From assembly GCA_025738555.1 (NCBI GenBank), contig JAOVFP010000008.1, forward strand, positions 2,232,001-2,296,000: a stretch of 64,000 bases of DNA, read 5' to 3'. Positions 12,158-64,000 of the stretch are shown in pieces (position 1 is the stretch's first letter; every line of letters begins with the position of its first letter). The translations under genes and the position numbers were made by a program. This DNA comes from Cyathus striatus. Taxonomy: Eukaryota; Basidiomycota; Agaricomycetes; Agaricales; Nidulariaceae. Below the pieces are notes generated by a model that saw nothing but the letters and a program-made list of their open reading frames with translations, searched no databases and had not been told where the DNA came from.

Positions 12158-12181
12158 TTGCGTCGCTGTATATTTCACTCC

Positions 12182-12565
12182 TCCACGAGATCAGGTGGAC
12201 TCCGGGTAGAGTCCGGGACTTCAGGTAGAGTCCAGGTAGAGTCCCAGACTCCAAGTAGACTCCAGGTGGACTCCAGGTGGACTCTACCTGGACTCTACCT
12301 GGACTCTACCTGGACTCTACCTGGACTCTACCTGGACTCCACCTGGACTCTACCTGGACTCTACCTGGACTCTACCTGGACTCCACCTGGACTCTACCTG
12401 GACTCTACCTGGACTCTACCTGGACTCTACCTGGACTCCACCTGGACTCTACCTGGACTCTACCTGGACTCCACCTGGACTCTACCTGGACTCTACCTGG
12501 ACTCCACCTGGACTCCACCTGGACTCCACCTGGACTCCACCTGGACTCTACCTGGACTCCCCATA
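12182..12565. repeat. K1 subterminal array, left (CTACCTGGACTC units)
   Basis: About 30 copies of a 12-bp unit CTACCTGGACTC or CCACCTGGACTC follow a short run of the same motif in inverse orientation (GGTAGAGTCCA, 12195-12280), so the array folds back on itself. The same motif lies at the other K1 terminus (20145-20450). Because it lies just inside the element ends on both sides, I read it as subterminal transposase-binding or end-recognition DNA rather than an independent satellite. Confidence 0.9.
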
Positions 12566-12631
12566 AATGCTACTTTACTTTACTTCAATAACCACATATA
12601 TATAAATTCCAAAGTTACAAAAATATTTTAT

Positions 12632-15050
12632 TTATTCTACACGATCTAATTCAATTCCATCATCTTCAACATTATTATCATTTGTATTTGTGTTTTGTGT
12701 TTGTTTGATGTTCTGTTTCATTAGCACACGTTGAGTATGAATAAAAAGCATTGCATGTGTTGTCCAATTAAAGTTGTCCACAGTCATTCTATTAAGAATG
12801 CTTTGAAATCCTCCAACCATGCATTAAGTTGTTCACATGCCTAAGTTTCAATCAGATATATATGTTATTATTGAATATTGACAAACATACCTGTGTATTG
12901 AAAGCTCGTTTGTAGTGTGGATTTCCTTCAGCATCTCTTTCAACAAGAACCAGATTAGGTGCTGATCCATTTAGAGGACTTGGATTGCAGAATTTGCGGC
13001 ATAAGTAGTCTCCCACTCTATGATTAATATAATGAAATGAGTCAACCACAAATCTGGTAGTTGTCTTCCATATATTCCAATCACGAGATGTGATCAAGTG
13101 TCTCAATACCATGCAAGCCTTATCAATACAAACATAGCTTGGTCTGACATTAGGTGTTGGATACACAAATTCCAGAAAGTCTATTATTTGGCTTTCACTC
13201 TCTGCTTTTACAAATTTTGCCCATGCAATAACAACTCCACAGGGTGCACAAATAGTTTCAACACAATAAAAGCGAGGTGCAACAAAGTAATTATCACGAG
13301 CAGGAGTAGTTGTTGCATTAGGTACTTCATCATGAGGTCGAAAATTGCCTCTATTTGTTTCAGACATCCATTCAGGAGCCCCTTCTTGTTCTGTCCTTCT
13401 GATAATTCTCTGAATTCCAAGAACTGACTGCCTTCCAAATCTTATAACATGATTATACCATCTTTGTCTATGATTTACACAAGTTTGAGATCTTTCCTCC
13501 TTCTCGTTATAACAGTCTTTCATGCGACATAAATTCTTGCATTGTGATTCATGTCTTATACAAAAAACTCCAGTACGTGCATTTTTTAAAGGCTCAGAGC
13601 AGTTTTCAAATGCACAGTGAGTTGGACCCATAACAATGCCATCAACAACTATCATTTTAACCATAGGTTCAATAGCATTAGTAGAGTCAGAAGTATCAAC
13701 ACTCATTTCATTATCTTCTATATGTTGAAATTCTTGATTTCTTGCATTTCTTTCCAAATCTGGTACATGCCTATTTTCATCAATGCCAACAACAGCAGCA
13801 TTATCATCAGCTGTAATTATATCAGCTGTAGCCTTATATTTATGAGTGCATTCACTACATGAATGTTGCAATGCATTGTTAATAATTCCTTTTTGACCTA
13901 ATTGATCAAATGCAGCTTTAGTTACTTGTTCAGTTGATACTCTATCAGGAATTCTCAAATCACAATTTGTTGATAATGAAATGTAGCGTGTGGTTTCTTC
14001 TATAAATGCTTTCCATACCTGTCGGCGTGAAACTGGTGGTATTTCATTTTCAGTACCATTTGAAAAGGTATAGTTCCAAAACTCAGTATATGCTGCAGTG
14101 GATGCATGAAAGTGATAAATAGAGTTGACAACCATGGTTGTAAACACTCTGTCAGCCCATATATTTGCACCAATCTTTAAATATTTTGCTCTGTTAAAGA
14201 ATATGGTATCTTTAGGACTCAATTGAGGATCTCGTGATTCCTCCCTTTCATCACTATCTACTTCTTCAATAATATCATTTGCATTATTTTGCTCCTGATC
14301 TTTATCTTCTGGATCATACTCATTCTTAGGAAGTATACTTTTATGATCAGCATAATATATAGCTTTACATTTCAAGCATGTCCCTGCAAGTAACTGAGCA
14401 TTTTTATATAATTGAACTCCTTTCATCAATCTAACTGTAACTCGATCACGTCCTCGAGTGTTTAGATGCAATGCTCTTCCAGCACATAATTTTCTGGATG
14501 TTGAACAAGTTATGCGTGCAGGGCAAATAAGTAATACAGGCTCAATTTCTGTAGTAGAAATTGACTTTAGAAATTGTGCATGCTCTGTCTTTTGTGTATA
14601 TGGATTTAAGCACAAAACTTCAATCATCTTATCAAGTTTCTTGACAAATTTAGTTGTCTTTGTTGATACATCCAGTGAATTTTCATTTTCATCTTCAAAC
14701 AATTGACTATCATCACCTATACGGCTCTGAATAGCACTTGCTAAAGCCTTTATCCACCCATTAGTCAACTTAGAATACTCGCTGTCAACAATTGGATTTT
14801 TTGCTCTTGCATGGAGATTGAGAAGGTCTACATTGTTTGTTAATGTAAAAAGTAAAGTTAAAACTGTTGCCAAAGTAATTGAGGAGTTAAAATTTTTTTG
14901 TATAAATTTTGAGAAAACTCTAAATGTGATGTCAGGAAAAGGATCATTTAGTGATGATGCTTGTACTTGAGGAACATAGCTCAAGAACACAAGTAATAGC
15001 CAGATTTGAAATAGACCTTGCAGAATGAAACCAAACCTATACAAGTACAA
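12632..15050 (-). pseudogene. KDZ-family transposase with CxC5/CxC6 clusters, frameshifted (K1 ORF2)
   Basis: The start is at 15050, the frame is open for about 720 codons, and a 50-bp intron lies at 12841-12890 (donor GTATGT, acceptor TTAG). Features in order: a hydrophobic N-terminal segment (residues 8-31); a CxC5-like cluster (ICPARITCSTS to GTCLKCKAIYYADH); ECTHKYK; the CxC6-like cluster VDGIVMGPTHCAFENC to CRMKDC and CVNH; then the KDZ core YCVETICAPCGVVIAW, YVCIDKACMVLR, FVVDSFHYINH and CNPSPLNGSAPNLV. After splicing, QACEQLNAWL leads into a frame lacking one G near 12811-12817; the expected GGFQSILNRM is in the next frame and ends at 12632. K2 has an intact equivalent. The enzyme would excise and integrate the element. 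A sequencing or assembly indel is the alternative to decay. Confidence 0.9.
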
Positions 15051-15147
15051 TATTAGTAAATCTGACTTAGAATTAATAGTGCATGACCAATAGAAATTTA
15101 TAAAATGTTAGAAGTACATGAAGTACATCAACAGAAAATATATAAAT

Positions 15148-15447
15148 CTACTATTGAAAGTAGGTAACTGTAGAAAAGTTGAAAATATATTGTTGAAATA
15201 TTTCAGTATAAAAGAATTAGAGAAGAAGCTACTGTTGAAAGTAGAATATTGTACAAAAGTTGGCAAATATTGTTGAAAATATCCAACCAACTGAAATAAT
15301 AAAATACAGATCTACTGTTGAAAGTAGATAGATTGTACAAAGCTGAGAAATATTGTTGAAATATTTTCAACCAAAAATAAACAGCATAAATCTACTGTTG
15401 AAAGTAGATGATTGTAATTCATTTTAGAAATACTGTTGAAGTATTTC
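15148..15447 (-). repeat. Four-unit hairpin array between K1 ORF1 and ORF2
   Basis: Four units of about 81 bp start at 15148, 15229, 15312 and 15392. Each unit holds two stem-loops with the same loop core TTGA. The first is CTACT-GTTGAA-AGTAG (loop ATTGAA in unit 1). The second is AAATATT-GTTGA-AATATTT, which becomes AAATACT-GTTGA-AGTATTT in unit 4, a paired change that keeps the stem. Units 3 and 4 are followed by TTTCAACC, complementary to the loop. The array occupies most of the 460-bp gap upstream of the transposase start. Function is unknown: RNA structure or protein-binding palindromes. Confidence 0.8.
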
Positions 15448-15514
15448 AACCAAAATTGACAGTTAGAGCATATGATGAAAAAAAATAGAACCAAAGTTAA
15501 AACAAATAAACATC

Positions 15515-17759
15515 TTACAATTTCTTAGCCTTTCCCTTTCGGTGTGACTTCTTGCTTTTCTCTTTCTCTCTCTCACTTTCCTCTCTCTCTTTCTGTTTTG
15601 CTCTATAATCCATAGCAGCTTTCTTGCCTTCAAGTAATTTTTGTAAATTACTAAAGTTAGGCTTTAAACCTTCCCATACAGCCTTTGTATGATCTTTATC
15701 AGGCTCATCTTCTTCAAACCAACTTTCCATTGCTGGATCATAACTCAACATTGGAAAGATCTTAAATGGGTACTGATAATATGTAGATGAAGCCATGAAT
15801 ACAGCAATTATCAGCTTTCTATCAATATGACAGTGGGCTATCTCTTCTAGAGAAGCCAACTCCATTTCTTTACTGAGAATCTCATTGATCTTACAGTATT
15901 TCAAGTATGTCATTTTGATGCTGTCCTTCTTCTTATCCACATTCTGAAGATGTTTAGGGATCTCAAAGTGATTTATAAGCAATTGAATTATGTCACTATT
16001 GCTCATTTCTGATTCAAATTTAGACTTAGATGATGATGACTTATTAACTATGGAAGATGGTCCTGGAATTTGCTGATCTACAGCACCATCTGCTAAAATC
16101 TCAACAATATACTTATTGTTCTCTTGTTTGCAATCAAGTGTCTCAGATCGCTGTAATGCTTTTGAGAATCTTCCTTTTAGCATCCATCTTCCATCTTTAC
16201 GAACTGAAATAGGTGAATTTTTGTCAGACACAAGCTCCCAATATTCAGCAATGATTTCAAGAACACTAGCAAGATCAGACCCTGGAGTCTGATTGTCAAT
16301 TACATAGTCTGCTTTGGTATGATCACGTGTCAGGAATAAATGAATTTCGCCATTTGTGTTCTCTGGAAGAATCATTGATACATCCATTGATACATCTATA
16401 TAAATGAATAAGTAAAACTAATGAATTAATAAATAATACAAATATACCTTCTTCTTCATCTCCAAAGTTAAAGAAATTACCAATGGCATGCTGGCGTGAA
16501 AATCCTCCAACTGCACGTGAGGCACCTTGAGGATCACTATCTGAGTAGCTTCTGACTGAGCTATGGGATTCTGAGTGACGTGATATCTTACTTATTGAGG
16601 TGCTTTGACTATCAGAATCTGAGCTGGAGAGCTCTGATCGACCACATTTAAAATCAGAAGCTTTCTTAGGTGTACAATCAATATCCATCTCCTCTGACTC
16701 GCTTATTTCCTCAGACTCACTCCTATTTTGTAACTCATCTATTTCCTTGAACTCATTCATTTCTTCTGATTCACCCATTTCTTCTGATTCACCTATCTCT
16801 TCTGATTCACCCATTTCTTCTGATTCATCTATTTCTTCTGACTCATCCACAGTAGCAAATGTATTAAGCTCATTGAGCTGCTTATTTGATTCAGAAGTGT
16901 TAGAAGATTCAGTGTCAGAAGATGACTCAGATATAGTCTTAAATTTATCAATATTCAAACTCCCCAACTGTGAGCTCAGTGGTACAAGAATTTCCTCCTC
17001 ATTCAATGAGTCGCCTACTTTTTCAGCAGTGGCACTTGTGGATGTGGTCTTAGCAGGTGAGGACACTTGATGTTGAGGAGGAGGAGGAGGAGGAGGAGGA
17101 GCAACAGATGTGTTATCATTCTCCAGAATTTGTTCCGCTCTACTAAATTAGTTAAAGTATTCAAGGTAAATATAACATTTACTTACGGGGTTAAATGCTT
17201 TGGCTTTCCTTGTACTTCATTAGCAATATCTTCTTGAAGTCGTGTAACTGAAGTTTTTCTACATTTTAATGTTAGTTAGATCACATAAAGAACAAATTAA
17301 ATTACTACATACTTAGGTTTTCCCCCTCCTTTTCCTTTCTCCTTTTTAGATGAAGATTCTGAGTTTTCTCTTTTTTTGGATTTTGTGTTAACCTGAGTTT
17401 TGGATTTCAAAGACTTGGACATATTAGTGGGTTCATGAAGTGTATCTTTTCCTCCAGACTGTTCTTGTGCCTTATTTCCAGCAATTCTTGTGCTAGATCT
17501 CATAGACTTAGGCTTCTTAGATGGCTCAGAAGGTGTAATTGTCCCTCCTCCTGATTGTACTTGTGCCCTAGAAGCAACCCTAGAGCTAGATCTCACAAAC
17601 TTAGGCATCTCAGATAGCTCAGAAGGTGTGTTTGTCCCTCCTTCAGATATTTCTTGTGTCTTAGAAGCAACTGAAGCAATTCTAGTGCTAGATCTAGAAG
17701 ATCTGGGCTCAACCATAGAAGGATTGACAGAGTTTGAGGTTGAGGTTGACTTAGACATG
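15515..17759 (-). CDS. K1 companion protein ORF1 (Ser/acid-rich with basic tail)
   Basis: Probable start MSKSTSTSNS at 17757-17759, stop at 15515-15517, with short introns near 17090-17300 and at about 16395-16450. The N-terminal exon has three imperfect repeats of about 37 residues built on RSSTRIA and TPSE. The middle exon is acidic, with repeats of the type SEEMGESEEI (16700-16870). The last exon (16387-15515) holds a globular part: SMILPENTNGEIHLFLTRD, WELVSDKNSPISVRKDGRWM, then WFEEDEPDKDHTKAVWEGLK, and ends in a lysine-rich tail. K2 has an equivalent gene at the same place with a similar W-acid-DxDxTKxxW-GLK segment near the C-terminus. No catalytic motif is recognised. A DNA-binding or chromatin accessory factor of the transposon is my inference. 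Confidence 0.7.
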
Positions 17760-18258
17760 TTAGATACAGTGGATAGTGACTTTAAAGAGCAGGTGGGGGG
17801 CAGGACAGCAATCTCAGTGTGGATCAAAGTGGGAAGGGAAGAAAGATTTCGTCACTTAGAAAGCTTACTATATGTGAGAATCTAATTATATTTCGGTCCG
17901 GCACACATTGATTCAAAAAAGTTAAAAATAGAATGGAGTCCATTAAGGTTCATGGCATGCGCCCACATTAAATTTACTAAAAATAGACTGATATCGGTCT
18001 AAATAGATTGCCATTAAATCGATTGCCAGCCGGCCTCACACTGTAATAATAATATACCAGAATCGATTTCATCTGCATGCGCTTGCAGCTTCCCATTAAT
18101 AGTTTTCTTTGTATGCGCTTGCACCTTGCCTTGTACTATATTAATAACTTCTGTGTGCTCACAATCTCACTTTCTACTAATTTGCACTCACTCATAATCT
18201 CACAGGTTTGTTTATAACCATTATAACATACAATATTTTTATTATTCTAATATACTGG
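17760..18258. promoter_or_regulatory. K1 leader between ORF1 and the CpG-rich island
   Basis: An AT-rich spacer upstream of ORF1, likely containing its promoter. ATGCGCTTGCA motifs recur at about 18077 and 18114. No gene is seen. Confidence 0.4.
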
Positions 18259-18299
18259 CTACGCTAATACAAATAGAATAACAATGCTATTTAATGTGT

Positions 18300-19930
18300 A
18301 TACGAAGATGCAGTGGTCTGGCGGTGGCGGAGGCGGCGCTGGTGTGGTGCTGGCGTTGGCGGTATAAGGAGAGGTCGTCGTCGTCACACGCGGAGAGGTG
18401 CTAGTGTTGGTGCTGGCGGTATGCGAACAGGTGGTGGTGGTGGTGGCGGGATGGCGGTACGCGGGCGGGTGGTAGTGGTGGTGATGAGGCGGCTGGGAGA
18501 GGTGGTGATGGAGGCGGTAGCGATACGGGGAGAGGGAGAGGTCGTCGTTGTAGTCGTCATCCAAGGGGACTTGGTGATGGAGGCGGTGTTGGTGGTACGC
18601 GGACAGACAGTCGTGGTGGTGGTAGCGGTACCGGGAGAGGGAGAGGTCGTCATCGTAGTCGTCATCCATGGGGATGAGATGCAGGACTTGGTGATGGAGG
18701 TGGTGGTGGTGGTACGCGGACAGACGGTCATGGTGGTGGTAGCGATACGGGGAGAGGGAGAGGTCGTCGTTGTAGTCGTCATCCGCGGGGACTTGGTGAT
18801 GGAGGCGGTGTTGGTGGTACGCGGACAGACGGTTGTGGTGGTGGTAGCGGTACGGGGAAGGAGAGGTCGGTGGTGGTGGTGGTAGCGGTACCGGGAGAGG
18901 GAGAGGGAGAGGGGTCGTTGTCGTTGTCGTCATCCGTGGGGACTTGGTGATGGAGGCAGTGTTGGTGGTAGCGGTACGGGGAAGGGAGAGGTCGGTGGTA
19001 GTGGTGGTAGCGGTACCGGGAGAGGGAGAGGGAGAGAGGTCGTCGTCGTCGTCGTCATCCGTGGGGACTTGGTGATGAAGGCGGTGGTGGTGGTACGCGG
19101 ACAGACAGTCGTGGTGGTGGTAGCGGTACGGGGAGAGGGAGAGGTCGTCGTCGTCGTCGTCATCCATGGGGACGAGACGGCAGGTGGTGGCGGTGGAGGT
19201 GAGACGGCTGTTCACGACGCAGGGGAGCCAGCCAGGGGAGCCAGCCAGGGGTGAAGCGGCGGTGTCGTGCTGGAAAGTCGATGACGTAGCATCGACGCAC
19301 GACATGGCGGGAGACGGTGGCAGCGCCAGGAGTAGACGGGGATGAAGAATCCCGTTGATTGCAGCTGTCGTCCGTCCCGATGCAGCCCAAGGAGGGAGAA
19401 GGGGCCTAACGCGTGACGTGGCGTCGGCGACGACATGGGGATGGAGATGGTGAGTGTTGGCGGTGGCAGGAAAGGGGGTTGAGGAAGGGGGTTGAGGAAG
19501 GGGCTTGAGGAAGGGGCGTCAACGACATTGGAGGATGCTAGTGTCGTTGTTGTTGTTGTCGTCGATACGCAGCGGAGAAGGCTAGGAGGAGGAAGGTGAA
19601 TCAGGAACGATGCGAGTGGAGCAGGAGGCTTACCTGATCCCAATCCTTGGCGACACTACGTTGGCGTCGACGACGTACGACGTAGACGCTTGAACGTCAC
19701 GGATTGTCCATCCAACGTTGAGGCCGGCGGGCGCTGGGAAGGATGGTCGTTGAACGTGAAGGGGGACGGGCGTTGGGCGCAGAGGGGAACGGGCGTTAAG
19801 CGTGGAGGGGGACGGGCGTTGAGAGTAGAGAGGGACGGGCGGTGAGAGCAGAGCGGAACGGGCGTTGACGGGGAAGATGTTGCGGTGGGAAGAACACGTC
19901 GTTGATCGAAGAAAACAAATGTGGGGTTGT
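18300..19930. repeat. K1 GC- and CpG-rich repeat island
   Basis: Base composition switches sharply from AT-rich, CpG-poor to GC-rich, CpG-rich. Between about 18500 and 19190 five to six units of roughly 100-150 bp repeat; each contains GGGGACTTGGTGATGGAGG, TACGCGGACAGAC and a (GTC)n GTCATCC block. From 19740 to 19880 a shorter unit around ACGGGCGTTGA repeats. The minus strand is open for 348 codons (18259-19305) as D- and H-rich repeats, and the plus strand is also open for 190 codons, so openness follows from 3-based repeats and I do not call a gene. K2 has a similar island in the same relative place. Confidence 0.8.
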
Positions 19931-19989
19931 TATTTTTGTAGCACGTGATATGACCGTGGAACTAGCTAAGTAGAATAGACATTAGTAAC

Positions 19990-20079
19990 TTCACAAGGTC
20001 TGATAACCTAGTGGTAAGTATGTGTATTGTTAACTCTCCAAGGTCTTGAGTTCGAACCAGTGTGGGGTACTTTTTTTTA
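19990..20079 (+). ncRNA. tRNA-like Pol III module, outward-facing, in K1
   Basis: An A-box-like TGATAACCTAGTGGTAAG (20001-20018) is followed by a B-box-like GAGTTCGAACC (20048-20058) at tRNA spacing, then a T8 run (20071-20078) that would stop Pol III. It reads toward the right end of K1, opposite to the transposon genes. I cannot fold a full cloverleaf, so it is tRNA-derived rather than a working tRNA. K2 has a counterpart in the same place and orientation. Confidence 0.6.
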
Positions 20080-20144
20080 TTATATATAAGTAAGAGTAAT
20101 AAATCTAATGTACAAAGATTCTACCGGAAAATCCACTTAGAATT

Positions 20145-20450
20145 CAGGTGGAGTCCAGGTAGAGTCCGTGTAGAGCTCAGGTGTAGCCAACCTGGACTCC
20201 ACCTGGACTTACCTGGACTCTATCTGGACTCTACCTGGACTCCAGTGCTTCAGTCCAGTAGACTCCAAGTACAGTCCAGGTAGCACTTGGACTCTACCTG
20301 GACTCTACCCGGACTCCACCCGGACTCTACCTGGACTCCACCTGGACTTTACATAGAAATAGGCTGATCATGATTCTGGCCAGAGTCTGGGTAGAGTCCA
20401 GGTGGAGTCCAGGTGGAGTCCAGGTAGAGTCCCGGAGTCCAGGTGGAATC
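20145..20450. repeat. K1 subterminal array, right
   Basis: GGTAGAGTCCA and TGGACTCTACC units in alternating blocks (inverse at 20145-20190, forward to 20345, inverse again to 20450), the same motif as the left K1 array but less regular. It lies about 40 bp inside the right end. Confidence 0.85.
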
Positions 20451-20493
20451 TACACGGAGTCTACACAATTTCGTGGAGGAGTGTAATGACCTC

Positions 20494-27900: not shown

Positions 27901-30900
27901 TTGTCAGAATGGCGCATTTTCCAGTACATAAGTATGTACTGTGCAATATCATCAATTGGAGCTGTGACAAGCAGGTAAATTAACAATTTATGAGTATAAT
28001 AAACAAACATTACGATTTGGTAAGTATTGATTTTTCACAAGTTTTGTTCGTGCCATGATAATGAAAATGAGTAGGAGACAGAAATGAGACAGCTATACTT
28101 ACACTCATCATTTTTTGTGGTATATATATGTTATGCTAACAATGGGCAATCCAAAAGTATCATAATTGCAATTAAACATAAACTGAGATGCTAATGACAC
28201 ATGTTCTTGGAGCCGATATTTAATGTGTGAAAATGTAATGCTATTATGGGTGGTGTAGCAGTAAACAATTATTCACAAAGCCTTGGCCTTCACCAAAGAC
28301 ATTGTCTTACATTACCATTTAGCTGGTTTTGTATATATTAGATATTGAACGCTCTTTGCTATTACTCTTGTAATCCTGCTAAGGAGACATGTGCATTTGA
28401 TTGATCATTGTAAGAGTAATAGGTGCATATGCAACTTAAACCTCATGTTTTTATCTGGTATATACTAACAAGTATTCGGCTCTGAGTCTTGAGTTTGCAT
28501 TGTTCTACAACAATGAACTTTACTTATCACTTACCTCACATTCTATGAGATATGACATACCCAACTCCTGCAGTTGTTGTGTGTTTAATTTTGAAGCTAT
28601 GACTGCACTGCATGTTCTTGATAATAGTGGTCCATGTTATAATTAGCATTAATACAGTTTTATGTGTGACTGACTCATGTTATTTGCATGAAGCTTAGAA
28701 TTGCAGCTTATCCTAAACACAGGGATTTTGTGAATATATATACTGTGACATCCCTCTTATGTTTTTAAGCAGCTGCTTTATTCCATCCACAACAACTATA
28801 TTCCACATCATGAACTTTGGTAACGCTGAAGCTATCGCTCAATTTACAGAGGATGCTTGTGCTAATGATTCAGTTCCTTGTGGTAGAAGTAGCTGCTCCA
28901 CTATTCTTCTTCCAGGTGACAACAGGCACTATGTGGTAGGGAATAATGGTTCTACAGGCAAGTTTGTATGCAAGCCATGCTTTGAGCATTATACCAGGAA
29001 GCCAGATACTATACTACGTGCTGTTCATTTTTCATCATTTCCATTTAGTCACTTACATTTCAATCAATTAGGACCAGATATTTTGAACAGTATTTCTGGC
29101 CCAAACCAACAGCTGCCTCATGATTCCATTCTCAGTATGTATTAACATTATAATTTAACACTGAAGTGAGTATTAAACAATTTTAATTGTAGGTCCTGCT
29201 GTTGCTTGTCAACGAAGTGCTGCAACAAGCATTGATGTCAATGCTATATGAACATCTGTAAACTGAGCACAACGAAAAGGTTAGATTTTGCATATTGTGA
29301 TGCTACTATTACTTTAATACTTACCTGATATTTTGTTTAGATTCTGAATTGCTTGCATGGAAGGTTACACCAATATCAAACAGTGTTCATTCGACATCCA
29401 GCTTGCAAAGATGGCCTATTACAAATAATGGTGCATTGCCTACCATTGGAATACCAAGTACATGGTCATCAGGCAACAGAGGGTCAGCCTCTTCTCAGCG
29501 ATTAATGGCTACTTGATATTCTGGTGCACATTCTCTCTACAGTGGTGAACATGACAAGTATCGGCGTCTATGTTACCAGTCTGGTAACCAGACTGAAACT
29601 ATCAGTGTTTTGCATGAAGTGTCAGGAAAAGCGAAGCCTGAATTGATTCTGGTTTGTTATTCTGTCTTGCTTTATATTATTGCACTTGTACTAACAAATT
29701 CATGTAGAATCTTCAGGAAGGGCAACAAAATATCCCAGCAACAGCTACACCTCCTGAGCTTAGACAGTTGGTGGAAGATACTATTTTCCCAAAGCTTATA
29801 AAGGAAACACACAGCTTTCCATTCAAAATGAATAAGTTAACAATTCGTGAGCTCTCTTCATGGGCAGATCTTTCACTTGAGAAACAGGATCACCCATACT
29901 TTTATTATTGCTGTCTTGCTGAAGGAAGAGGAAAAGATAAAACAAAGGTCTTTAAAAAACCTTCCAAACCTTTCACATTGGAGCTCTTTACACTTAGCCA
30001 TGTGTTCTGTACGGATCCACGCGGAATCCGTGTGGAATCTGCACAGATTTTTTTCATTTTGGCAGAGGTTTTTTTGGGTCTGTACAGATTCCGCACAGAT
30101 TTCGAAAATTCCGTACGGATTACGCAGAATTCCTCGGAATTCCGCATTACAGACCTGAAAATTCTGTACAGATTCTGTACAGAATCTGTACAGAATTTTA
30201 TTACACTTATTTTCTTGCATGTGACACACTGCATTAAGCATGATACTAGGTGTTGAGTGTGACACTATACGTTAAATGTGACACTATAAGCGTGACACTA
30301 GGTGTTGAGTGTGATACTAGGTGTTGAGTGTGACACTATACATTAAATGTGACACTATAAGTGTGACACTAGGTGTTGAGTGTGATACTAGGTGTTGAGT
30401 GTGACACTATACATTAAATGTGACACTATAAGCGTGACACTAGGTGTTGAGTGTGATACTAGGTGTTGAGTGTGACACTATACATTAAATGTGACACTAT
30501 AAGCGTGACACTAGGTGTTGAGTATGATACTAGGTGTTGAGTGTGACACTATACATTAAATGTGACACTATAAGCGTGACACTAGGTGTTGAGTGTGATA
30601 CTAGATGTTGAGTGTGACACTATATGTTAAATGTGACACTATAAACGTGATACTAGGTGTTGAGTGTGATACTAGGTGTTGAGTGTGATACTAGGTGTTG
30701 AGTGTGACACTAGGTGTTGAGTGTGACACTATACATTAAATGTGACACTATAAGCGTGACACTAAGTGTTGAGTGTGACACTATGCATTAAGCGTGACAC
30801 TAAGCGTTGAGTGTGACACTATACATTAAACATGACACTATGCATTAAGCGTGACACTAGGTGTTGAGTGTGACTAAGTGTGACACTAAGTGGTGAGTGT

Positions 30901-33900
30901 GACACTAAACATTGAGTGTGACACTATACATTAAACATGACACTATGCATTAAGCGTGACACTAGGTGTTGAGTGTGACTAAGCGTGACACTAAGTGTTG
31001 AGTGCGACTAAGCGTGACACTAAGTGGTGAGTGTGACACTAAATATTGAGTGTGACACTAGGTGTTGAGTGTGACTAAGTGTGACACTAAGTGTTTCGTG
31101 CAACTAAGCATGACACTAAGTATTGAGTGTGACACTAAGTGTTGAGTGTGACACTAAGCGTTGAGTGTCACACTATACATTAAACATGACACTATGCATT
31201 AAGTGTGACACTAAGCATTGAGTGTGACACTAAGCATTGAGTGTGACACTAAGCATTGAGTGTGACACTAAGCATTGAGTGTGACACTAAGCATTGAGTG
31301 TGACACTAAGCATTGAGTGTGACACTAAGCATTGAGTGTGACACTAAGCATTGAGTGTCACACTAAGCATTGAGTGTCACACTATACATTAAACATGACA
31401 CTATGCATTAAGTGTGTCACTATACATTAAACATAACACTATACATTAAGCATGACACTAAGTATTAAGTGTGACACTATGCATTAAGCATAACACTAAG
31501 TGATGAGTGTGACACTCTGCATTAAGCGTGACACTAAGTGTTGAGTGTGACACTATATATTAAGCATAACACTATGCATTAAGTGTGATACTATGCATTG
31601 AGAATGATACTATATATTGAGTGTATCATGGATTTTGTATAGTGTGACACTTTTCACCTAGGGTTATACTTGACATGTGTGACAAGGCAGCAATGCATAA
31701 ATCCACACAGAATCCATGCAGAATATGTATGGAATCCATATAGAATAATCACCTCTAATAATAATAATAGCTACTATATAAATTCTGTATGGTATCTATA
31801 CAGGTCTGTACGGGTCTGTACGGATCCGCACGGATCCGTACAGAATTTTCGGATTCCGTGCGGATTCCGTACGGATCCGTACAGACCTCTTGGGGGAGTG
31901 TAAATTACTGTTACATTGGCACTTGTTATACCAGCAAAGTTGTGGGATAAGTGTTTAGATTATATTATTGAGCAAGAGGTAAGGTATTTTTTAATCACTT
32001 CATAATGTAACTCATTTTAAAACTGAATTGTTAACTCAGGAAACTAAGGTAATCTTCATTTATCAAATGTAATTATGTTATATCTGACCTACAAGTAGGA
32101 CCAAAAAAACAACTTCAATACATCTACTCAGTTCTATGAAACAGATATAAATCCAGTGATCAATAATGCTTGTTCCATACCCAACCAGAAACCATGGACT
32201 GATGAAAGCAAGGTGCCACCTTCTGAGTCATCTGGTATGCAGAAGAGAACACGCACAGTATGGGTTTTATTATTACTTATGACATTTACATTATACTAAC
32301 ATTCAATTATGTAGAATACTCAAAACTCCATGGATTTATCCCCAACATCTACACCTACAAAGAAGCGTGTTCAAATATCAACCATTTATGTATCCCCTGA
32401 CAGAGAAAAAGTTCGTGAAGCATTGAAGACAGGCAGATTGTTAGCTAATCTTCAAACACATTCCAGTAAGTTAATTATAATATTGTTGTATTTCATCAAC
32501 TCAATACTTCTCTTGCATAAGCTAAACATATTGTGGAGCAGATCCAATTTTATGCGATTCCTGATATCAGTTTGACAGAGCTCCTTTCTGACTCTGCTTC
32601 AAAATCATTTGAACTCTCTGATCCACATCCTGGTGTTTTATCAATCAACCATCTGGAAGCACTTGGCATTGGGGCATGTAAAACTGCTCACAAAGGGCTG
32701 CTAACTGTTACACCCTTAGCCAAATCAGGCCTTGGTAATATTTTAAACCAGGCCATTGCCATTAAGCGTGTTTACTTTCCAGGTGATTTAAAGGGTAAGA
32801 AGAAAACACGAAGTGATTCACAGTCTAATTTTTCAATTGGTTGTTTTGCAGTCGACTCAGAGCTTGAAAAAACACTTATTGAAGCAAATGTTTTCTATTG
32901 GGCTGCATCATTACTATCCCATACATACTCATACATATCACAGGTGATATCAGCAAAAGGATCACCTCCATTTGAAGTTCCTCAACTGCACTTTGTGAAG
33001 GCAGGTGTAGCAATTGTACATGACTCAACAGCTACAAAATCTGGTGGAAAAGTAACAACAATGTGCAGAGTTTACCTTGTTGAGGAGTTGATTGAAGATT
33101 GTAATGGGGGGAGCTCTGAATTCATCAAATTCATTCACAATGGATCTGCAATACCACTACTTGCAGAAGTGGATCCACTTTATTTTATAGCAGAGTTTTT
33201 GTCCTTTACTCAACATGTTCAGTTTGAGAAAACAGGTGGTTTAGCATATGTATCTGATCTTCAAGGTATGTATACCACTATTTTAATGACATGATATGAT
33301 TTTGATGATTATACAGGAAACTCAACACTGTTATCTGACCCACAGATTATGACTGCACTGTAAGTATTTTATATACAATGAAATCTATCATTTTATCTTA
33401 CCAATTTTGGATAAAGACTGCTAGAAGATGAAGCAAATTTGTTTGGTGGTGGAAATATTGGCTCTGCATTTGACAAATTTCGAACCGAGCATGCCTGTAA
33501 CAAGTACTGTTCTTGGTTTGATCTTGATGGGCTAAATGTGGATGATAAATCTAGCTAGTACTCCAGTTATAGTTACCATCTTTTAGGTAGCTCTGTTTCC
33601 TCTTGTGTACCAATTGGAAATACATAGTATACGAGTTAACAGATCACTGTTTCATTAACCTTTACAGTGCTATTATCATTCTGGTCTAAATTTAATTGGA
33701 AGTTTCAATGTTGTCTATGAAAACCTTACATGCAGTTGTTTGAATTAATATTTGTTCATTCTCTTTACATATAATATATTTCTCCCCTCTTCTTGGGTCC
33801 TTTCTGAGGCCAGGAGTAGAGAAAGTATTATTGCACAACATGTTCGCTCTCTCCTTGCTTCTGTTTGTACCTATTTGTACATTCTGGTCACGAGCGTTGT

Positions 33901-56075: not shown

Positions 56076-56111
56076 ATAAGACCGAGGACTTTACACTCGC
56101 CCCCTGTTACA

Positions 56112-56425
56112 CATGGAATACATGTGAATTCCACCTTTACATGTGTACTCCATGTGCACTTCACATGTATTTCACATAGCTTCAGATGTATTCAAATTGG
56201 AAAATTTCCATACAATTTTCGAATTTTTGTACACATGAAATACACATGAACTGCACATGAACTGCACATATGCAGGTGGAATGACAGAATTCCACGTGTA
56301 AACATATGGTGGAATTCATGTGCATTTCACATGCAGTGCATATAACTACGTGTATTCCACATGTATTACACATTCATAACTGAATTATGGTGCTCGGTGT
56401 ACTACACATGGAATACTTGAAAGTA
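56112..56425. repeat. K2 subterminal array, left (ACATGTGTACTCCATGTG)
   Basis: Repeats of ACACATGGAAT, ACATGTGTACTCCATGTGC and similar, themselves palindromic (CATGTG/CACATG). The same motif fills 63440-63866 at the right end. Unlike the K1 arrays in sequence but in the same position. Confidence 0.88.
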
Positions 56426-56474
56426 ATTACACTTGCTGCTTACTAAGAATAATAAAAATTAAACCGGTGAATAA

Positions 56475-56565
56475 AATCCGTCCCTACCAGTGTTCGAACT
56501 CGAGACCTAGCCATTCAGCTAAGTAACATTAGCACAATTAACCATTCGGCCATAGTGCCATTTGA
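56475..56565 (-). ncRNA. tRNA-like Pol III module, outward-facing, in K2
   Basis: On the minus strand an A-box-like TGGCCGAATGGTTAA (about 56537-56551) precedes GAGTTCGAACAC (about 56491-56502) and then a TTTT (56475-56478). An anticodon-arm-like stem GCTAA...TTAGC lies between. It reads toward the left end, opposite to the K2 genes, as in K1. The T-arm is poorly paired, so it is a tRNA-derived sequence, not a confident functional tRNA. Confidence 0.6.
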
Positions 56566-56589
56566 ACACTTAGGTATGTAGTGCTATGT

Positions 56590-58030
56590 ATACTGCTCAT
56601 TCAGCTGTCGATGACCGGTACATACCCAAGTGACGCGTCACCTGCGCTCAACAGGCGCTCACTGCTCAGCCCTGTCCCATCACCATCTCACCTCATCATC
56701 ACCACTCATCGCGCCCTCCCCCCCATCCTCCCTTCCTCATCCCTCGGGGCCCTCCAGGCTCAATCCCTCCCTGCCTGTAGAAGGCAACAACGCCGCTGGC
56801 AAGAGTGGTTCGGCACCACGTCGCCCGTCTCCCCCTCTGTGTCACAACAACAGCCCACACACTCGCCCTCTCCTATCACCCCAACAACGCTGATGCGCCA
56901 TCGGCAACACACTCACCTCAAGCCCGCCTCAATGTATGTGCCCCCCCCCTGCGATATGCCACAGCGACATTAATGCCACGTCACTCCTCATCGATTGAGC
57001 GCTCATCAGGTACGTTCCCTTTCCTCTCCCCTTTCCATCACCGCTGTCTTGTATCCCCACAGTGTTGTCTATGTCTCATAGACACCCCAAGCCTTGCTCG
57101 ATGACAATGCATCATGTCAATACCCCTCCTCCCTGCTTCTCGAAAAAGACGATGCCATGCCACGCCGTGTCACCTGCCCCTCCTCTTCTCTCCTCCCCTC
57201 TGCATCACGTCGGCGGCAGTGTCATATTATCTGGCTGCCTCTCCCTTGTTTCATGAAGACGGCGGTGCCACATCACCCGCCTCCCCTCTCTTCCTCCCTT
57301 CCCCCTGCATAACGTCGGCAATGGTGCCACGTCATCTGGCCACCTCCTCCCCTGTTTTGCAAAACGGTGACGCGACGTCACCCACCTCCACTCTCCACTC
57401 TCCACCCGCCTTCCCTCACTTCCCTCCTCCCCCCACATTCAGGTCGGCGATGGCACCACATCATCCAGGCCTCTCCAGCCAACGATGATGAAGATGCCTG
57501 GCACCCACATCCATCCCACTACACCACCGCCACCCCATTCCACCACCTCGCTTTCCACCACCATGCTTCGAAGGAGCAGCGAGGGGAAGAATAGCAAGGG
57601 GGGAGAGAGAACGAAGGGGAGAGAAAGCAAGGGGGAGAGTGTATGTGAGGGGGAGAGAGAGTGCGAGGGGGAGAGAGTGAGAGAGCGAGAGAGCGAGAGA
57701 GTGAGAGGAGAGCAAGAGAGCGAGGGGAGAGGAGGAGAGTGAAGCAGGAGGAAAGTGGGGGGGGAGAACAGAAAGGAGAGCGCGAGTAGGGAGACCAGCA
57801 AGGGAGCAAGGGGAAACGAGAATGAGGGGGAATGAGAACGAGGGAGGAGGAGAGCAAGGGGGAATGAGAACGAGGGAGGAGGAGAGCAAGGGGGAATGAG
57901 AACGAGAGAGGAGGAGAGCAAGGGGGAATGAGAATGAGGGGGGAGAAGAGTGAGGGGGTCCTCCTCTTCCTCCCCACCACTACTACCATACCCCGCGGCC
58001 ATCGTTGCCGCCTCTACCACTGCCGTCGTC
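56590..58030. repeat. K2 CpG- and GC-rich island
   Basis: GC-rich, with pyrimidine-rich GCCACGTCACC-type repeats (56640-57480) followed by purine-rich GAGAG repeats (57590-57960). The latter include about four copies of a 33-bp unit containing GGAATGAGAACGAGGGAGG (57825-57935). Long ORFs here on both strands result from the skewed composition. It occupies the same relative position as the K1 island. Confidence 0.75.
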
Positions 58031-58266
58031 TCGTCGAGCAGTGGCTATCTTATTTATATTAGTTTAGTTATAGTAACACCTGTATGTACTTAGTATGCTA
58101 ATAATATATTGTTCTCGTCATTATGATTTGTGAGTACCGAAAATGTAAAGACTGCTGTTCACAAGTCACAAATAGCATGCTGTATCTGATCATTGCTCAT
58201 CGATGATCGCACGATCTCTGCTCTAACCACAACCACCACCTATTCACACTACAATCACTGCAATCC

Positions 58267-60691
58267 ATGTCAAGCAACACTGCCAACACCGACAATACTG
58301 GCATTCAGGTTTCCCCACCTCGTTCTCGCAGTGGGAAACCTCGAGACCCAGATCTCTTCAACCATAAATCTCGCAAGCGCACTCAGTCTACTGTTGATAC
58401 CACGCAGGAGCCTGCTACCAAGAAGCCAGCAGTAGAAGAAACTGATGCTGTACAATCTGGTAGAGGTGGAAAAAGTGTGTGGGGCAGGAAACAGAAAGGG
58501 AAGAAAGCAGTACAGGGAAGGTTTGTTGTCCACTTATGTACTCTCAAACTCTCACTGTTTTCAACATTTAGAACAACATCTGCTGACAAGAACAAGGCAG
58601 ATGAGGCTGCTAAAGCTAAGACTGAGACACAGATTGCAGGGTGAGTAACACTCTTTTTGTTCTTTATTTTTTTTCCCCAAATTTTCGCATTTTATACATA
58701 CAATCATGGCCTTTCATTTGTCAATGGGTTGTCACTCTTCATGCATGTACATGTGTACTACATGTACTGAAGATATGCTTCCTCCTCAGCTTATTAAAGA
58801 GTTGTGATATTATTACTTACAATTTTACAGTGCTATGAAGTACTTGAAGGATGCACATATCTCTGTTGCTCCACCCAAGGCTACCAAGTCTTCCCTTAAG
58901 CCAGGAGCTACTAAGTCCGAGTCTGCAGCTAAACCAAAGGTTCTCACTCCAGCTGAGAGTCCTGCTTCAAGCCAGACACCTTCTGAGATTGATGATCATA
59001 TTGACACAATTGAAGAAGGTGAAAGTAATGCTGCAACTGAGGAGGAAGGTCCTGGCACAGAGGATGATAAAGTTGAAGAAGAGATGAGTGGGAAGGATAG
59101 TGAAGCAGATGAAGGAAGCAAGGAGCATACTGATAGTGAGGAAGATGAGGAAGGTGAGAAAGGTGAGGAAGGTGAAGAAGGTGAGGAAAGTGAGGAAGGT
59201 GAGAAAGGCACAGGACAGGAAGGGGAAGAGATGGGAGATGGCAAAGAAATTGAAATAGAGGAGGTAGTTACTGTTGAACAGAAAGGGAAAGGGAAGGGAA
59301 GGGAAAAAGAAGGGAGTGACAAGGATGGGGATGAAAATATGGTTATTAGCAATCCCACTACCCCAACAAAGAAAAAAGGTATGTAATAATTATTTTTAAA
59401 AGTTAAAGCTTATTCATTGTCTACAGATATTGTTATGAGAAGCCCTAGTCCAGTATGGTCTAGAGAAACATTGCAAGGTTCATCTAAAGTTTCAGGTATA
59501 TTCTATTTGTTTTGATTGAATAATTTCTTATAAATTCATAGGAGGTACACTGCATGGAAATGCAACTGGAAATGTTGATAATTGGGCTGATGTAGTTGAT
59601 CCCACTACCCCCCCTCACTCACCAGTCAGTGGAACAGTACAACTGTACATGACTCAGAATGAGCCAGACTTCAATCCTACTGAACAATCTGGGGTACCTC
59701 CAAAAACCATTTCAGTCCCATTTTCATATGAAATTGGTAATATTTTGAAGGCAGTGGCAACACCCATGTCACCTGTAAAAAGTGAGCATTCATAAATTTA
59801 TTAGTTAAAAACATGTTTATTAATATGAGTTATAGATCAAAACCGAAGGATGTACATGTATGATACTGCCAGTAAGGAATGGAATATCTTGGGGCGCTAT
59901 TCAGTAGTCGATAAACAAGGTGAAGTGCACTGGAGTAGCAGGGATAATAAGAATATAGTATATTTAGCTGCAGTATTTATTTTAATTATTGCATAAGATG
60001 TATACTAACTTTCTTCTAGGCTAATCCAATTTCTTCTTCTTATCAAGGAAACTCTGCTAGTGTTCCAAGTGCTCCAGCCACAGAGACTGATAACAGGAGT
60101 TCTCCTGAAAAATTTAATTACTTCACAGAGGAATTTATAACCCTCTGTGAAATAAAAACAGATTTAATTGCTGTTGGAAAATGGGATATTCATTTTGCTT
60201 GGAGGTTCCATAGGGAGGTTGAAAGAGTTCACACTTTCATTCAAAACATGAGAGCTGAGGACAATCCTTGGCCACAAAGTTTGTTTTATTTTATTACAAT
60301 TGATAATTTACTAATGAAAATAAAAGGTGTTGGAAAGCCAAGTAAGAAGCAAATAGTTTCATTTTTCACAGGTGGAAAGCATGGCCATACATCTTACTAC
60401 AATTGGACACATGTTATGGGGCATGTATCTGAGTATCCTGAAATGACTCAGTGGCTTGAAAATCCAGATATTAATGATGCAGATACAAAAGTGCTTTGGG
60501 GACTTCAAAAGACATCTGGTTTTACTCGTACAGATTTGGAACATTGGATTAAGCATCAATCTGGAGCTCAGAAAACCAAGAAGAGCAGTAGTAGCAGAGG
60601 TGGTAGTAGCAAGGGTAGTAACAGTAAAAGTGGTGGTAGCAAGGGTGGTAGTGGTAAAGGTGGTAGTAACAAGAGCACCACCAATAAGTAA
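58267..60691 (+). CDS. K2 companion protein ORF1 (acidic, GS/K-rich tail)
   Basis: Start MSSNTANTDNTGIQVSPPRS, stop at 60689-60691. Introns by GT/AG and frame: about 58520-58570, 58640-58830, 59379-59425, 59495-59541, 59780-59835 and one ending near 60019. In order: a basic segment (KPRDPDLFNHKSRKR), an acidic Glu/Gly repeat region (EGEKGEEGEEGEESEEGEK, 59150-59210), a Pro/Thr linker, YMYDTASKEWNILGRYSVV, and a C-terminal globular part (FHREVERVHTFI, LFYFITIDNLLMKI, MTQWLENPDINDADTKVLWG). It ends in a Ser/Gly/Lys repeat tail. The last segment resembles K1 ORF1 (W-acidic-DxDxTK-xxW-GL). Function unknown; accessory or DNA-binding role inferred from position and charge. Confidence 0.7.
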
Positions 60692-60932
60692 GTGATTTAA
60701 CTATTTTTTGATTTTTGATTTTGGTCCTTCTATAACTGTACTTTTAGTTTTTCTTTTTTTTTGTCTTCTATGTCTGCTTTATGGCTCTCTCCTTCAACAA
60801 TTTCCTTCTCTGTTTTGGAAATTTCTCTCTATGATCTCTATGATTTCTCGATCTTTTACTCAGGAAAATTGTTCAAATTGGAAATTTCTCTCTATGCTGC
60901 TGTGCTTGACACTGGACTACAAATACATTTAT

Positions 60933-63176
60933 ATGTGGACTTTACTTTATAAGTTTAGATTCTCCAATCTGAGAGGTGCTACTATATTATGTCTGCTATA
61001 TTTTCTACCTATGGCAGCTGCAAGTCCAAATGAACAGTCTTTTCCTAAAATTCATTTTAAAACTTTTTCCAACTTTATAGAATGCAACTTTGGCCCAAAT
61101 ATATCACTTTCTACTGTTCTTATGCTGTTATTCACAATGACAAGCAATACAGAGCTACTGAACTTACACCAAAGACAACAACATCCTGAAAATGAATTTG
61201 AAAGAAAAAGTTTAATCTCTGCTTGGATACGATCTTTAAGCTATGTAGTTATAAATGAGCTTGGTGACAAACCAAAGCATCTCTTCAAAGACAGTGAAAT
61301 AACACCTGGTTTCTGGAATATTAATAATAAAAATGCAGTTGCTTTGAATCTTGGAAAGAAGTTAAACAGATTTAGTAAAATTCTGAAACTAAGATCATAT
61401 GATGATCATGGAAGACTTGTTGAATATCTTAAACCTGTTTCTCTCAATAAAATACAGCCTATAAAAATGATATGTCCAGCTTCTGTCAGCTGTGCTGGAA
61501 GTAAATGCAATAACAAAAATATTAAACTTTCATCAAAATATGAAGATATACCATGTGTAACATTGATCAGTAGGACTGAGATTAATAGTCATGCTTATAT
61601 TCTTTCTGGAATCTGCTCAAACTGTAAAACAATATATTATGCTGATCATGAGAGACACAAAACATCTTCAAAACCTGCTCAGAAAGTCTATCTTAATAAT
61701 GCAAAGTACATAAAAATTGGTAAAACTCTATGGGTTGATCGCATATTCTCAAGATCTGTATTAAATGCAACCTATAGTTTTCATGCTTCTACATCTGCAT
61801 TTGCTGACTTTTGGAGTAACCCTTATGGAGATACAAAAGAAGTTAGTCGCAGACAGATTTGGTGTACATTTATAGAGGAGTCTTTGAGAATAGTAGCTGA
61901 ATCCTCAAAATTAAAATTTGTTATTGATGATGGTCTTGCAGTTAAAGACATTACAAGGAATGCATATGATAAGCTTGGGTCCAATGGTAATATATATCCT
62001 GCTACTGAGCATGGTTGCTCAGAATGTACCCACAAATACAAAACAACTGCAGATGTAATCCCTTCTAGAATTCATTCAAATACAACTGCCACTGCTCCTG
62101 AGCAATCATTATATACAAATGAAGAAAATTATTCTCCAGTGAAAATGGCTGTAATTGATGGAGTCATAATGGGAACAACAGTATGTTTAATTTCTTTAAT
62201 TTATATATTTACACTAACATGCCTCTGTAGCATTGTGCATGGGAAGACTGTATTGCTGAGCTACAAAACCACCGAGGTGGAGTATTTTGTGGACTTCATA
62301 ATATTATGTATGGCGCAAAATGCCGTGTTAAAGAGTGCATATCCCAAAAAATTACAGGTACTCAAGCCTGTGAAACACATCAAAATTTATGGAATAAGCA
62401 TAAGTCAAACTCAAGTTCCTCAGGATTAGCAGGTCTTCGAAGAGCTTTACAAACAAGAGATAGACAGCCATGGCAGCCAAGTACTAGAAATAATACATCT
62501 GCACATGATGAACCTCATGAAGAGCCAACAGAAAAACATAAGACATACTTTAAACCTTCAAAATCCTACTGTGTTGAAACTCTTTGTGCACCATGTGGAG
62601 TAGTAATTGCTTGGACCAAATTTATGAAATCTGAGTCTTCAACAGAGATTTTAAATTTTATAAATAATGTCTATCCAATACCAGAGTCTCGCCCAGCATA
62701 TTTTTGTATTGATAAAGCTTGTGTTGTATTGCGCACTGTTGCAAATCAAGAAGAATATCATGAATTACTAGAAACCAGTCAATTTGTTGTTGATAGCTAC
62801 CATTATAATAACCATAAAGCCTCTGATAGATTGTGTCAAGAATACTGTAACCCAGCACCACGTGATGGATCAGCACCAAACTTGGTTATTATTGACTACG
62901 ATAATAATGGTACACCATATTACAAATGTGCTTTTAATACACAGGCAAGTAACTTTTCTTTTTGCATAATAATCAATATTTAATTAATTTATATAGACAT
63001 GTGAGCAGTTAAATTCATGGCTTGCTGGATTTGAGTCTATTCTAAAGAGAATGACTCCATCAAACTTCAAATGGTTTTTACATACAGTACTTTTTTATCA
63101 TACTCAATATGTTCTTCAGAAGCATAGCAAAAAGTGGGTAAAGATTAGTGATGATATTGTAGAAGATGATGAGTAA
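60933..63176 (+). CDS. KDZ-family transposase with CxC5/CxC6 clusters (K2 ORF2)
   Basis: The start chosen, at 60933 (MWTLLYKFRFSNLRG), matches the K1 N-terminus; the frame is open further up to 60708, where a duplicated GGAAATTTCTCTCTATG makes an upstream extension possible. Introns: 62181-62230 (GT-AG) and 62945-62996 with a GC donor (CAG|GCAAGT). Domains: hydrophobic N-terminus; CxC5-like cluster ICPASVSCAGSKC to GICSNCKTIYYADH; ECTHKYK; CxC6-like VIDGVIMGTTHCAWEDC to CRVKEC and CETH; core YCVETLCAPCGVVIAWTKF, YFCIDKACVVLR, FVVDSYHYNNH, CNPAPRDGSAPNLV. After the last intron it ends QTCEQLNSWLAGFESILKR, WFLHTVLFYHTQYV and ISDDIVEDDE. It is complete compared with the frameshifted K1 copy. Confidence 0.92.
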
Positions 63177-63439
63177 ACACTAAATGCCTATTGTATGCAA
63201 CCCACTTTCCAAGCCAGTTTCTTAATAGCTTCATTTCTACTTGTATGTAAAGTCATTATAAAACTATAATTGATGTATATACATCAGTCTCAAAACCAGT
63301 CAAGATTTCTTTCAAATAAATTTAGCTATATAACATGTATATAGTATGTAACCCAGTTTATAAATAAGATTGTGTTGGTGTATTTAGTTCAGTCTCCAAA
63401 CCACTCTCTTCATGAATTAATGTTTACATATTCAGGTAA

Positions 63440-63866
63440 TACACCAGAACTTCATGTGAACTTAATCTTGAAGTTATATGGCAAAATGTATTTAAATGCA
63501 TGTGGATTTCACATGTAATACACCTGAACTTCATGTGAATTTAACCTTGAAGTTATGTGGCACAATGTATTTAAATCCATGTGGAATACACATGGATTCC
63601 ACATGAACCATTATAAATTTTAAGGATTCCATGTGTAATCCACATGGAATCCACATGGAAAAGTACACATGAAGTACACCTTAAGTACACCTTTCAACTG
63701 TCATTTTCATCAAGTTTTAAGAAAAGTGGAATCCATGTGTACTCCACATGGTTCCATGTGAACTACACGTGGAAAATCAGCACTTTATTCCAAATATGTG
63801 TATTCCATGTGTACTTCACATGGAAATGTGTACTACACATGGAGTACATGTGTATAGGTGGGTGTG
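63440..63866. repeat. K2 subterminal array, right
   Basis: Repeats such as CATGTGGATTTCACATG, TCCACATGGAATCCACATGG and TGTACTTCACATGG. A direct repeat of about 80 bp (63445-63500 and 63520-63580, TTGAAGTTATATGGCA) leads into it. Same motif as the left array. Confidence 0.85.
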
Positions 63867-64000
63867 CGGAAAGTACTGATAAGACCTGCACTGCAGTAAG
63901 CCGTCTTGACACCAGCTGACAACTAATGAAGAAGCTGAACAGTATCATGATTCATGAGTCATCCATCTCTCTACTTAATTTTAGATTGATATCAAACCAA

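Follow-up and report, generated by a model that had tools for sequence, protein, structure and literature searches.

Results

Four insertions in a 64,000-nt stretch of the Cyathus striatus genome (GCA_025738555.1, contig JAOVFP010000008.1, positions 2,232,001-2,296,000, forward strand; hereafter, the window) very probably represent a single superfamily of DNA transposons, in which a protein with CxC5 and CxC6 zinc clusters would be the transposase and the satellite-filled elements would be non-autonomous and moved in trans (we put the probability of this reading at about 0.92). Two of the insertions, K1 and K2, are coding, and two, S1 and S2, are filled with satellite repeats (Table 1). Satellite-filled elements share their family ends and 8-bp target site duplications (TSDs) with coding CxC5/CxC6 elements. 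All results come from this one genome (107 Mb in 24 contigs).

Window insertions and empty sites

The four insertions were found, with the ends and flanks given in an initial annotation of the window, at all four coordinates. The claimed duplications are exact for K1, S2 and K2, and the flanks of S1 agree at 7 of 8 positions. The window contains a host segment twice, in diverged form (9146-21192 and 49968-56083; ~76-87% identical in pieces, by BLAST), with K1 inserted in one copy and K2 in the other. When joined, the K1 and K2 flanks align through a single diverged 8-mer (TTGTGTCG and AAAAAACC) in the other segment copy, so that both annotated empty sites are uninterrupted. The host exon in which S1 sits stays open once the flanks of this element are joined, as had also been claimed.

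Terminal motifs and families

Exact matches to the end motifs were counted genome-wide, with the identical motif read backwards as the control. The excess over the control was pronounced for CAGTANNTTNCACTCNCCCA (568 vs. 0, a count that overlaps that of CAGTATATTGCACT), GAGCTCTTTACACT (515 vs. 3), GAGGTCATTACACT (214 vs. 0), CAGTATATTGCACT (123 vs. 0) and CTGTATATTTCACTCC (63 vs. 1), and weak for the K2-type A end GAGGACTTTACACT (9 vs. 4). The general pattern is GAGnnCnTTACACT... at one end (A) and CWGTAnnTTnC... at the other (B). The ends had been described as asymmetric, which is correct for the outer bases; past the first ~9 nt, both ends enter a common stretch (CACT, then CC) and form an imperfect terminal inverted repeat (TIR) of ~20 bp, so that they are not wholly asymmetric. 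Four families were delineated by their B and A ends, namely, K1 (CTGTATATTTCACTCC and GAGGTCATTACACTCCTCCA), F3 (CAGTATATTGCACTG and GAGGTCATTACACTGCYCCA), S2 (CAGTATATTGCACTCTCCCA and GAGGTCATTACACTGACCCA) and S1 (CAGTAATTTACACTCCCCCA and GAGCTCTTTACACT); K2 is a fifth.

Among the first 20 motif matches, four (L009, L011, L012 and L021) are not ends but lie inside another repeat, with the 40 bp upstream in common. In this repeat, on C1, GAGGTCATTACACT is internal, the upstream 40 bp end in AAAAATTG (slightly diverged in L021), and a GTGTGACAC satellite adjoins. It may belong to an additional family of satellite-filled elements, the ends of which would lie further out.

Pairing of ends and 8-bp duplications

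Pairing was restricted to the first contigs, and the places of GAGGTCATTACACT and of the B ends were the matches listed in contig order. Of the 100 listed GAGGTC ends, 53 had a listed B end in the correct orientation within 20 kb, and 19 had a B end in any of three wrong arrangements. The lengths of the 53 paired elements form two groups, 0.37-4.2 kb and 6.9-15.7 kb. An exact 8-bp duplication flanks 39 of these pairs and a duplication with one mismatch flanks five; no exact duplication was found among the 53 pairs at k = 4-7 or 9-12, and the cross-pair control at k = 8 yielded no match. In the S1 family, 66 of the 87 A ends on C1-C2 were paired within 15 kb (27 had a B end in a wrong arrangement), and 60 of the 66 pairs are 0.49-2.68 kb long; of the 20 short pairs listed first, 19 have exact duplications. 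The annotated combination of ends and 8-bp duplications was thus borne out in both samples. All 62 exact duplications (39 + 19 and those of K1, S2, K2 and the coding element L121) are distinct and somewhat AT-rich (35% GC vs. 41% in the window).

In four of the five one-mismatch duplications, the A side has T and the B side has C at the position where C together with the G of the element makes a CpG; among the 62 exact duplications, C is retained at the CpG-forming position in 18. The in-frame stops of K1-like copies, counted over the 60 main rows, are mostly TGA (95, with 11 TAA and 10 TAG). Both patterns would fit decay of methylated CpG.

A nested arrangement was observed at L039 (C3:3074904-3079194), where a K1-family satellite element of 2,175 bp (TSD GTAGAGTT) is inserted within another of 4,211 bp (TSD CAATATCA), with both the inner and the outer duplication exact.

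Coding and satellite-filled members of the same families

Each of the families S1, S2, K1 and F3 includes short, satellite-filled copies and coding copies of 7.7-10.8 kb with the same ends. An exact TSD together with internal transposase sequence (by coordinates or translation) was identified for K1, K2, L013, C3:2311520-2320393, C3:3829242-3837492, C6:3328845-3338656 and C7:898264-909048, as well as for C3:6314807-6322529 (L122), which has S2 ends. L121 combines S1 ends and internal transposase sequence with AGTTAATC on both flanks; with this coding partner, S1 is not an orphan family. Several coding copies contain in-frame stops. Short members, compared with their coding partner in 17 cases (S1 and eight members each of K1 and F3, those listed first), align with it over 38-257 bp inward from the ends. 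Thus, coding and non-coding copies in K1, F3, S1 and S2 have ends and TSD length in common, as expected of autonomous/non-autonomous pairs, and the annotated unity of coding elements and satellites as one superfamily is supported by the sampled pairs.

The transposase copies themselves had been predicted to carry the end signature. An exact B end was found within 4 kb on the C-terminal side of 20 of the 49 eligible CxC5/CxC6 transposase copies, compared to 0-1 for the shifted controls and 1 for the flipped ones, so that the prediction holds for this portion of the copies.

Satellite interiors and subterminal arrays

Within the 200-bp zone inside each end, autocorrelation peaked at a lag of 11 bp for 13 of the 14 zones of seven elements; the 11-bp units differ by family. 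The share of tandem repeats, measured with TRF, was 17-91% in short K1, S2 and F3 elements, 82% in S1 of the window and 11-27% in four long elements. In three coding elements that were read (K1 18300-19900, K2 57439-58044 and L121 827-2231), the interval from the A end to the gene contains a G- or C-rich, tandemly repeated stretch.

Short elements of S1, S2, K1 and F3 contain 1.7-22 copies of TGTGACA/TGTCACA per kb. For five coding elements the density is 0-0.4 per kb, and the background of the window amounts to 12 copies over 42.6 kb. Because it is dense in the short elements of four families and nearly absent from the coding elements, the TGTGACA core is a module common to the families and, as far as seen, no remnant of the coding gene. 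The exceptions among the short elements are three of the four shortest members of the K1 family, which contain no copy and the TSDs of which are all exact. The interior of S1 shows no similarity to its coding partner, and the central satellites do not derive from the coding elements examined.

An 18-mer of the S1 core has 930 matches in the genome (control, 0). The first 100 of these form 36 islands, of which 30 lie inside an A-B pair, five have some end within 3 kb and one has none. The minisatellites sampled in this way are mostly, as annotated, parts of elements and not simple sequence.

The CxC5/CxC6 gene

Both K1 (CxC6, E = 1.3e-17; CxC5, E = 2.4e-14) and K2 (CxC5, E = 4.7e-23; CxC6, E = 3e-09) match the CxC-type zinc clusters that Pfam associates with KDZ transposases. 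A complete homologue modelled by AlphaFold with 110 sequences has a predicted RNase H-like fold, with two invariant Asp in this domain; modelling just the K1 exon, from 34 sequences, gave a poor result (pLDDT 61). A sequence search of solved structures identified no relative (lowest E = 0.082). One search returned 349 CxC5/CxC6 relatives, and none was confirmed in collections of viral contigs and genome contigs. In K1, the matches of the last exon (12704-12846) to homologues fall in two frames, so that the reading frame of K1 is interrupted there and the copy is probably inactive. A copy at C1:2162376 has no stop within the matched part. By eye, K1 19995-20070 resembles the A and B boxes of a tRNA with a T run after them; no tRNA was detected in this stretch by ARAGORN, and Rfam gave no match at gathering scores.

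The label KDZ, applied to the elements in the initial annotation, is upheld only through the Pfam names of CxC5 and CxC6. The Pfam KDZ transposase domain PF18758 had no match in the K1/K2 exons at E ≤ 0.01 or in nine homologues including the last exon at E ≤ 10, and the loci in the genome that do match PF18758 are other than the CxC5/CxC6 copies. None of 39 canonical KDZ loci from C1-C6 has an exact K1-, S2- or F3-type B end, the types covered by this check, within 6 kb. KDZ is therefore a loose label, and canonical KDZ genes are unsupported as drivers of these elements.

Table 1 Features of the four insertions in the window.
Feature	Position	Strand	Remarks
K1, 8,328-bp coding element (K1 family)	12166..20493	-	TSD TTGCGTCG at 12158-12165 and 20494-20501
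K1 B end CTGTATATTTCACTCCTCCACGA	12166..12188	+	
K1 B-side subterminal 11-bp array	12191..12559	.	TGGACTCTACC
K1 last exon of putative transposase	12704..12846	-	Third catalytic residue region; homologue matches in two frames
K1 main exon of putative transposase	12852..15107	-	Stop-to-stop frame; CxC5, CxC6 and part of predicted RNase H-like domain
K1 ORF2 domain	15515..16417	-	Similar domain fused to transposase in Amanita rubescens P0103
K1 A-side subterminal 11-bp arrays	20190..20461	.	
K1 A end GAGGTCATTACACTCCTCCACGA	20471..20493	-	
S1, 1,930-bp satellite-filled element (S1 family)	29981..31910	+	Flanks TCACATTG / TTACATTG; in host exon
S1 A end GAGCTCTTTACACT...	29981..30003	+	
S1 core satellite	30220..31624	+	19-bp units TGTGACACTATGCATTGAG
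S1 B end CAGTAATTTACACTCCCCCA...	31888..31910	-	
S2, 2,560-bp satellite-filled element (S2 family)	35583..38142	+	TSD ATATATTC
S2 A-side subterminal 11-bp array	35620..35795	.	AGTGAGAGTCT type
S2 core satellite, left half	35940..36823	+	19-bp units with TGTGACA
S2 core satellite, right half	37158..37808	-	Similar units, inverted (TGTCACA)
S2 B-side subterminal 11-bp array	38000..38131	.	
K2, 7,795-bp coding element (K2 family)	56084..63878	+	TSD ATAAGACC
K2 ORF2 domain	60020..60691	+	
K2 exon of putative transposase with CxC5	60696..62429	+	Stop-to-stop frame
K2 exon of putative transposase with CxC6	62231..62983	+	Stop-to-stop frame; part of predicted RNase H-like domain
K2 last exon of putative transposase	62997..63170	+	

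Elsewhere in the window, two inverted repeats with TCAATGA-type 11-bp repeats nearby, 6162-7059 (arms 6162-6551 and 6670-7059, 100% identical) and 40909-44669 (arms 40909-41111 and 44467-44669, 98% identical), probably represent a further element family.

Discussion

The coding copies (7.7-10.8 kb) carry a gene, probably multi-exon, that encodes CxC5 and CxC6 zinc clusters and, according to the structural model, an RNase H-like domain of the DDE type; the product of this gene is likely to be the transposase itself. This protein would recognize the short, imperfect terminal repeat and, next to it, might bind the family-specific 11-bp subterminal arrays, with insertion proceeding through an 8-bp staggered cut and, presumably, cut-and-paste chemistry. 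The satellite-filled elements retain some 40-250 bp of the terminal sequence of their family and would be mobilized in trans by coding copies; their interior consists of tandem repeats, mostly with the TGTGACA core common to the families.

Several observations weigh against this scenario. No movement of an element was observed. An exact-match B partner is missing for 47 of the 100 listed A ends and an exact B end is missing near 29 of the 49 transposase copies, the flanks of which were unread; nine of the 53 pairs have 2-8 mismatches between the flanks, and one of the 20 S1-type pairs has five. The alignment at the K1 empty site contains an 88-bp gap 19 bp left of the site, and that at the K2 site an 11-bp gap immediately right of the 8-mer. 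The candidate third catalytic residue, E697, is present in 38 of 110 rows (45 have gaps and the rest other letters), a count limited by the many predicted homologue proteins that end or run on before the last exon, and Foldseek gave no match at E ≤ 0.001 (best E = 0.041). Furthermore, with ends ~82% similar between the K1 and F3 families and a 100-bp stretch common to S2 and K1 at 79%, cross-mobilization between the families is inseparable from mobilization within them.

The TGTGACA core might be a passenger satellite and not functional cargo, carried from family to family through gene conversion or nested insertions, and the odds of this are about even. Nested insertions exist, as at L039 with its two exact TSDs, and the lack of the core in three of the four shortest K1-family elements, in spite of their exact TSDs, indicates that it is dispensable. 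Conversely, the densities in the other short elements of S1, S2, K1 and F3, set against those in the five coding elements, speak for more than a passenger. We tentatively entertain, as possible rather than probable, that the CxC5/CxC6 elements constitute a superfamily of their own, apart from KDZ and not a divergent branch of it, and that the core was acquired across families as a functional module. If so, a tandem repeat would be the usual cargo of non-autonomous transposons, and a satellite would spread genome-wide by hijacking four sets of transposon ends; a functional core would show how satellites can spread by acquiring such ends.

It is improbable that a canonical KDZ or another transposase encoded elsewhere moves the elements and that the CxC5/CxC6 protein is only accessory, or linked to Copia (PMC7641404). 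Pfam names CxC5 and CxC6 merely as clusters associated with KDZ transposases, the CxC5/CxC6 proteins contain no Pfam transposase domain, and co-localization with Copia has been reported (PMC7641404); however, an exact B end lies within 4 kb of 20 of the 49 CxC5/CxC6 copies, and one of the K1, S2 or F3 type within 6 kb of none of the 39 canonical KDZ loci, and an RNase H-like fold with invariant Asp is predicted for the CxC5/CxC6 protein itself.

That the elements are hAT transposons is more doubtful still. The hAT elements have short TIRs and subterminal repeats; here, subterminal repeats are present and the B end begins with CAG in three of the four window elements. An 8-bp TSD is also a feature of hAT (PMC12730594). 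Against this assignment, no hAT Pfam domain was detected, either in the exons of K1 and K2 (E ≤ 0.01) or in nine homologues of full length (E ≤ 10; the HMMER filters drop most very weak matches), and the CxC5/CxC6 architecture differs. The structural comparison lists 50 rows, with hAT not among them, and says nothing for or against hAT.

Finally, ordinary minisatellite expansion with coincidental shared ends and 8-bp repeats, although compatible with the high share of tandem repeats in the short elements (17-91%; S1, 82%) and their widely varying lengths, is hardly credible and was rejected, given 62 distinct exact duplications at fixed boundaries, the end-motif excess over reversed controls (515 vs. 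3, 214 vs. 0 and 568 vs. 0) and the location of 30 of the 36 sampled islands inside A-B pairs.

Under the favored interpretation, that of one superfamily with a CxC5/CxC6 transposase, dispersed fungal minisatellite islands can be identified as transposons that have defined ends and for which there is a candidate transposase, and the widespread CxC5/CxC6 proteins, earlier named KDZ-associated and, in Pleurotus, Copia-linked, gain a likely enzymatic role. It also offers, as a hypothesis, a simple re-reading of the insertion in MSH4 that underlies commercial sporeless strains of the oyster mushroom.

Comparison with known transposons

The literature searched, with Repbase and most subscription papers outside it, yielded no previous account of the ends and TSDs of CxC5/CxC6 elements and none of satellite-filled KDZ derivatives. 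The elements resemble KDZ transposons in the 8-bp TSD (39/53 and 19/20 pairs exact), which is described for Zisupton (PMC12730594) and Cryptococcus KDZ1 (PMC12810828), in the presence of zinc-chelating CxC clusters along with the transposase, an association that PMC7641404 credits to Iyer et al. 2014, and in the occurrence of large coding elements in basidiomycetes. They differ in the type of cluster, CxC5/CxC6 as opposed to CxC1 in Cryptococcus (PMC12810828) and CxC2 in Pleurotus KDZ (PMC7641404), and in their ends, where the imperfect repeat of ~20 bp and the 11-bp arrays contrast with the TIRs of 139-241 bp of KDZ1-3, the TSDs of which are given as 8 bp or 4-8 bp (PMC12810828). Kyakuja, reported with 7-bp TSDs, CA..TG ends and no TIR, is also unlike them (PMC12730594). 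TIR motifs of KDZ and Plavaka elements have been characterized in Marasmius oreades (PMC8290104, supplementary figure).

In sporeless Pleurotus ostreatus, MSH4 contains a 6,792-bp insert with a CxC5/CxC6 open reading frame (ORF; 739 aa), small direct repeats, microsatellite clusters and dispersed copies, and no KDZ gene was found near CxC5/CxC6 ORFs (PMC7641404), all similar to the elements described here. In contrast to these, the insert was linked to Copia retrotransposons, and the accessible text reports no TSD or terminal repeat (PMC7641404). By analogy, the MSH4 insert may be the same kind of DNA transposon. A weak lead that the insert might have an S2-like end comes from the primer MSH4-FIP (PMC12568894, Table 2), which is located at its left flank and includes GAGTGCAA; in reverse complement, this is TTGCACTC of the S2-type B end.

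The foldback transposon Tetris of Drosophila virilis is likewise non-autonomous, with internal tandem repeats, and a source of satellite arrays; it differs in its animal host and in its 220-bp repeats, which lie within TIRs, and the abstract names no autonomous partner (PMC4079207).

As in maize Ac/Ds and En/Spm (CACTA), a coding element is accompanied here by non-autonomous copies that share mainly the ends, with subterminal repeats. The Ac/Ds and En/Spm transposases bind subterminal repeats, and we know of no TGTGACA core in either system. Unlike the elements analyzed here, those systems use hAT and CACTA transposases. The ends in C. striatus begin with GAG.../CAGTA... or CTGTA... and not with the CAC..GTG of EnSpm, which has 3-bp TSDs (PMC12730594), and the 8-bp duplications, none of the pairs having matched exactly at k = 4-7, are distinct from the short TSDs (2-5 bp) of CACTA/EnSpm. 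In the Ac/Ds system, Ds1, at ~400 bp, has little homology with Ac (PMC3260210).

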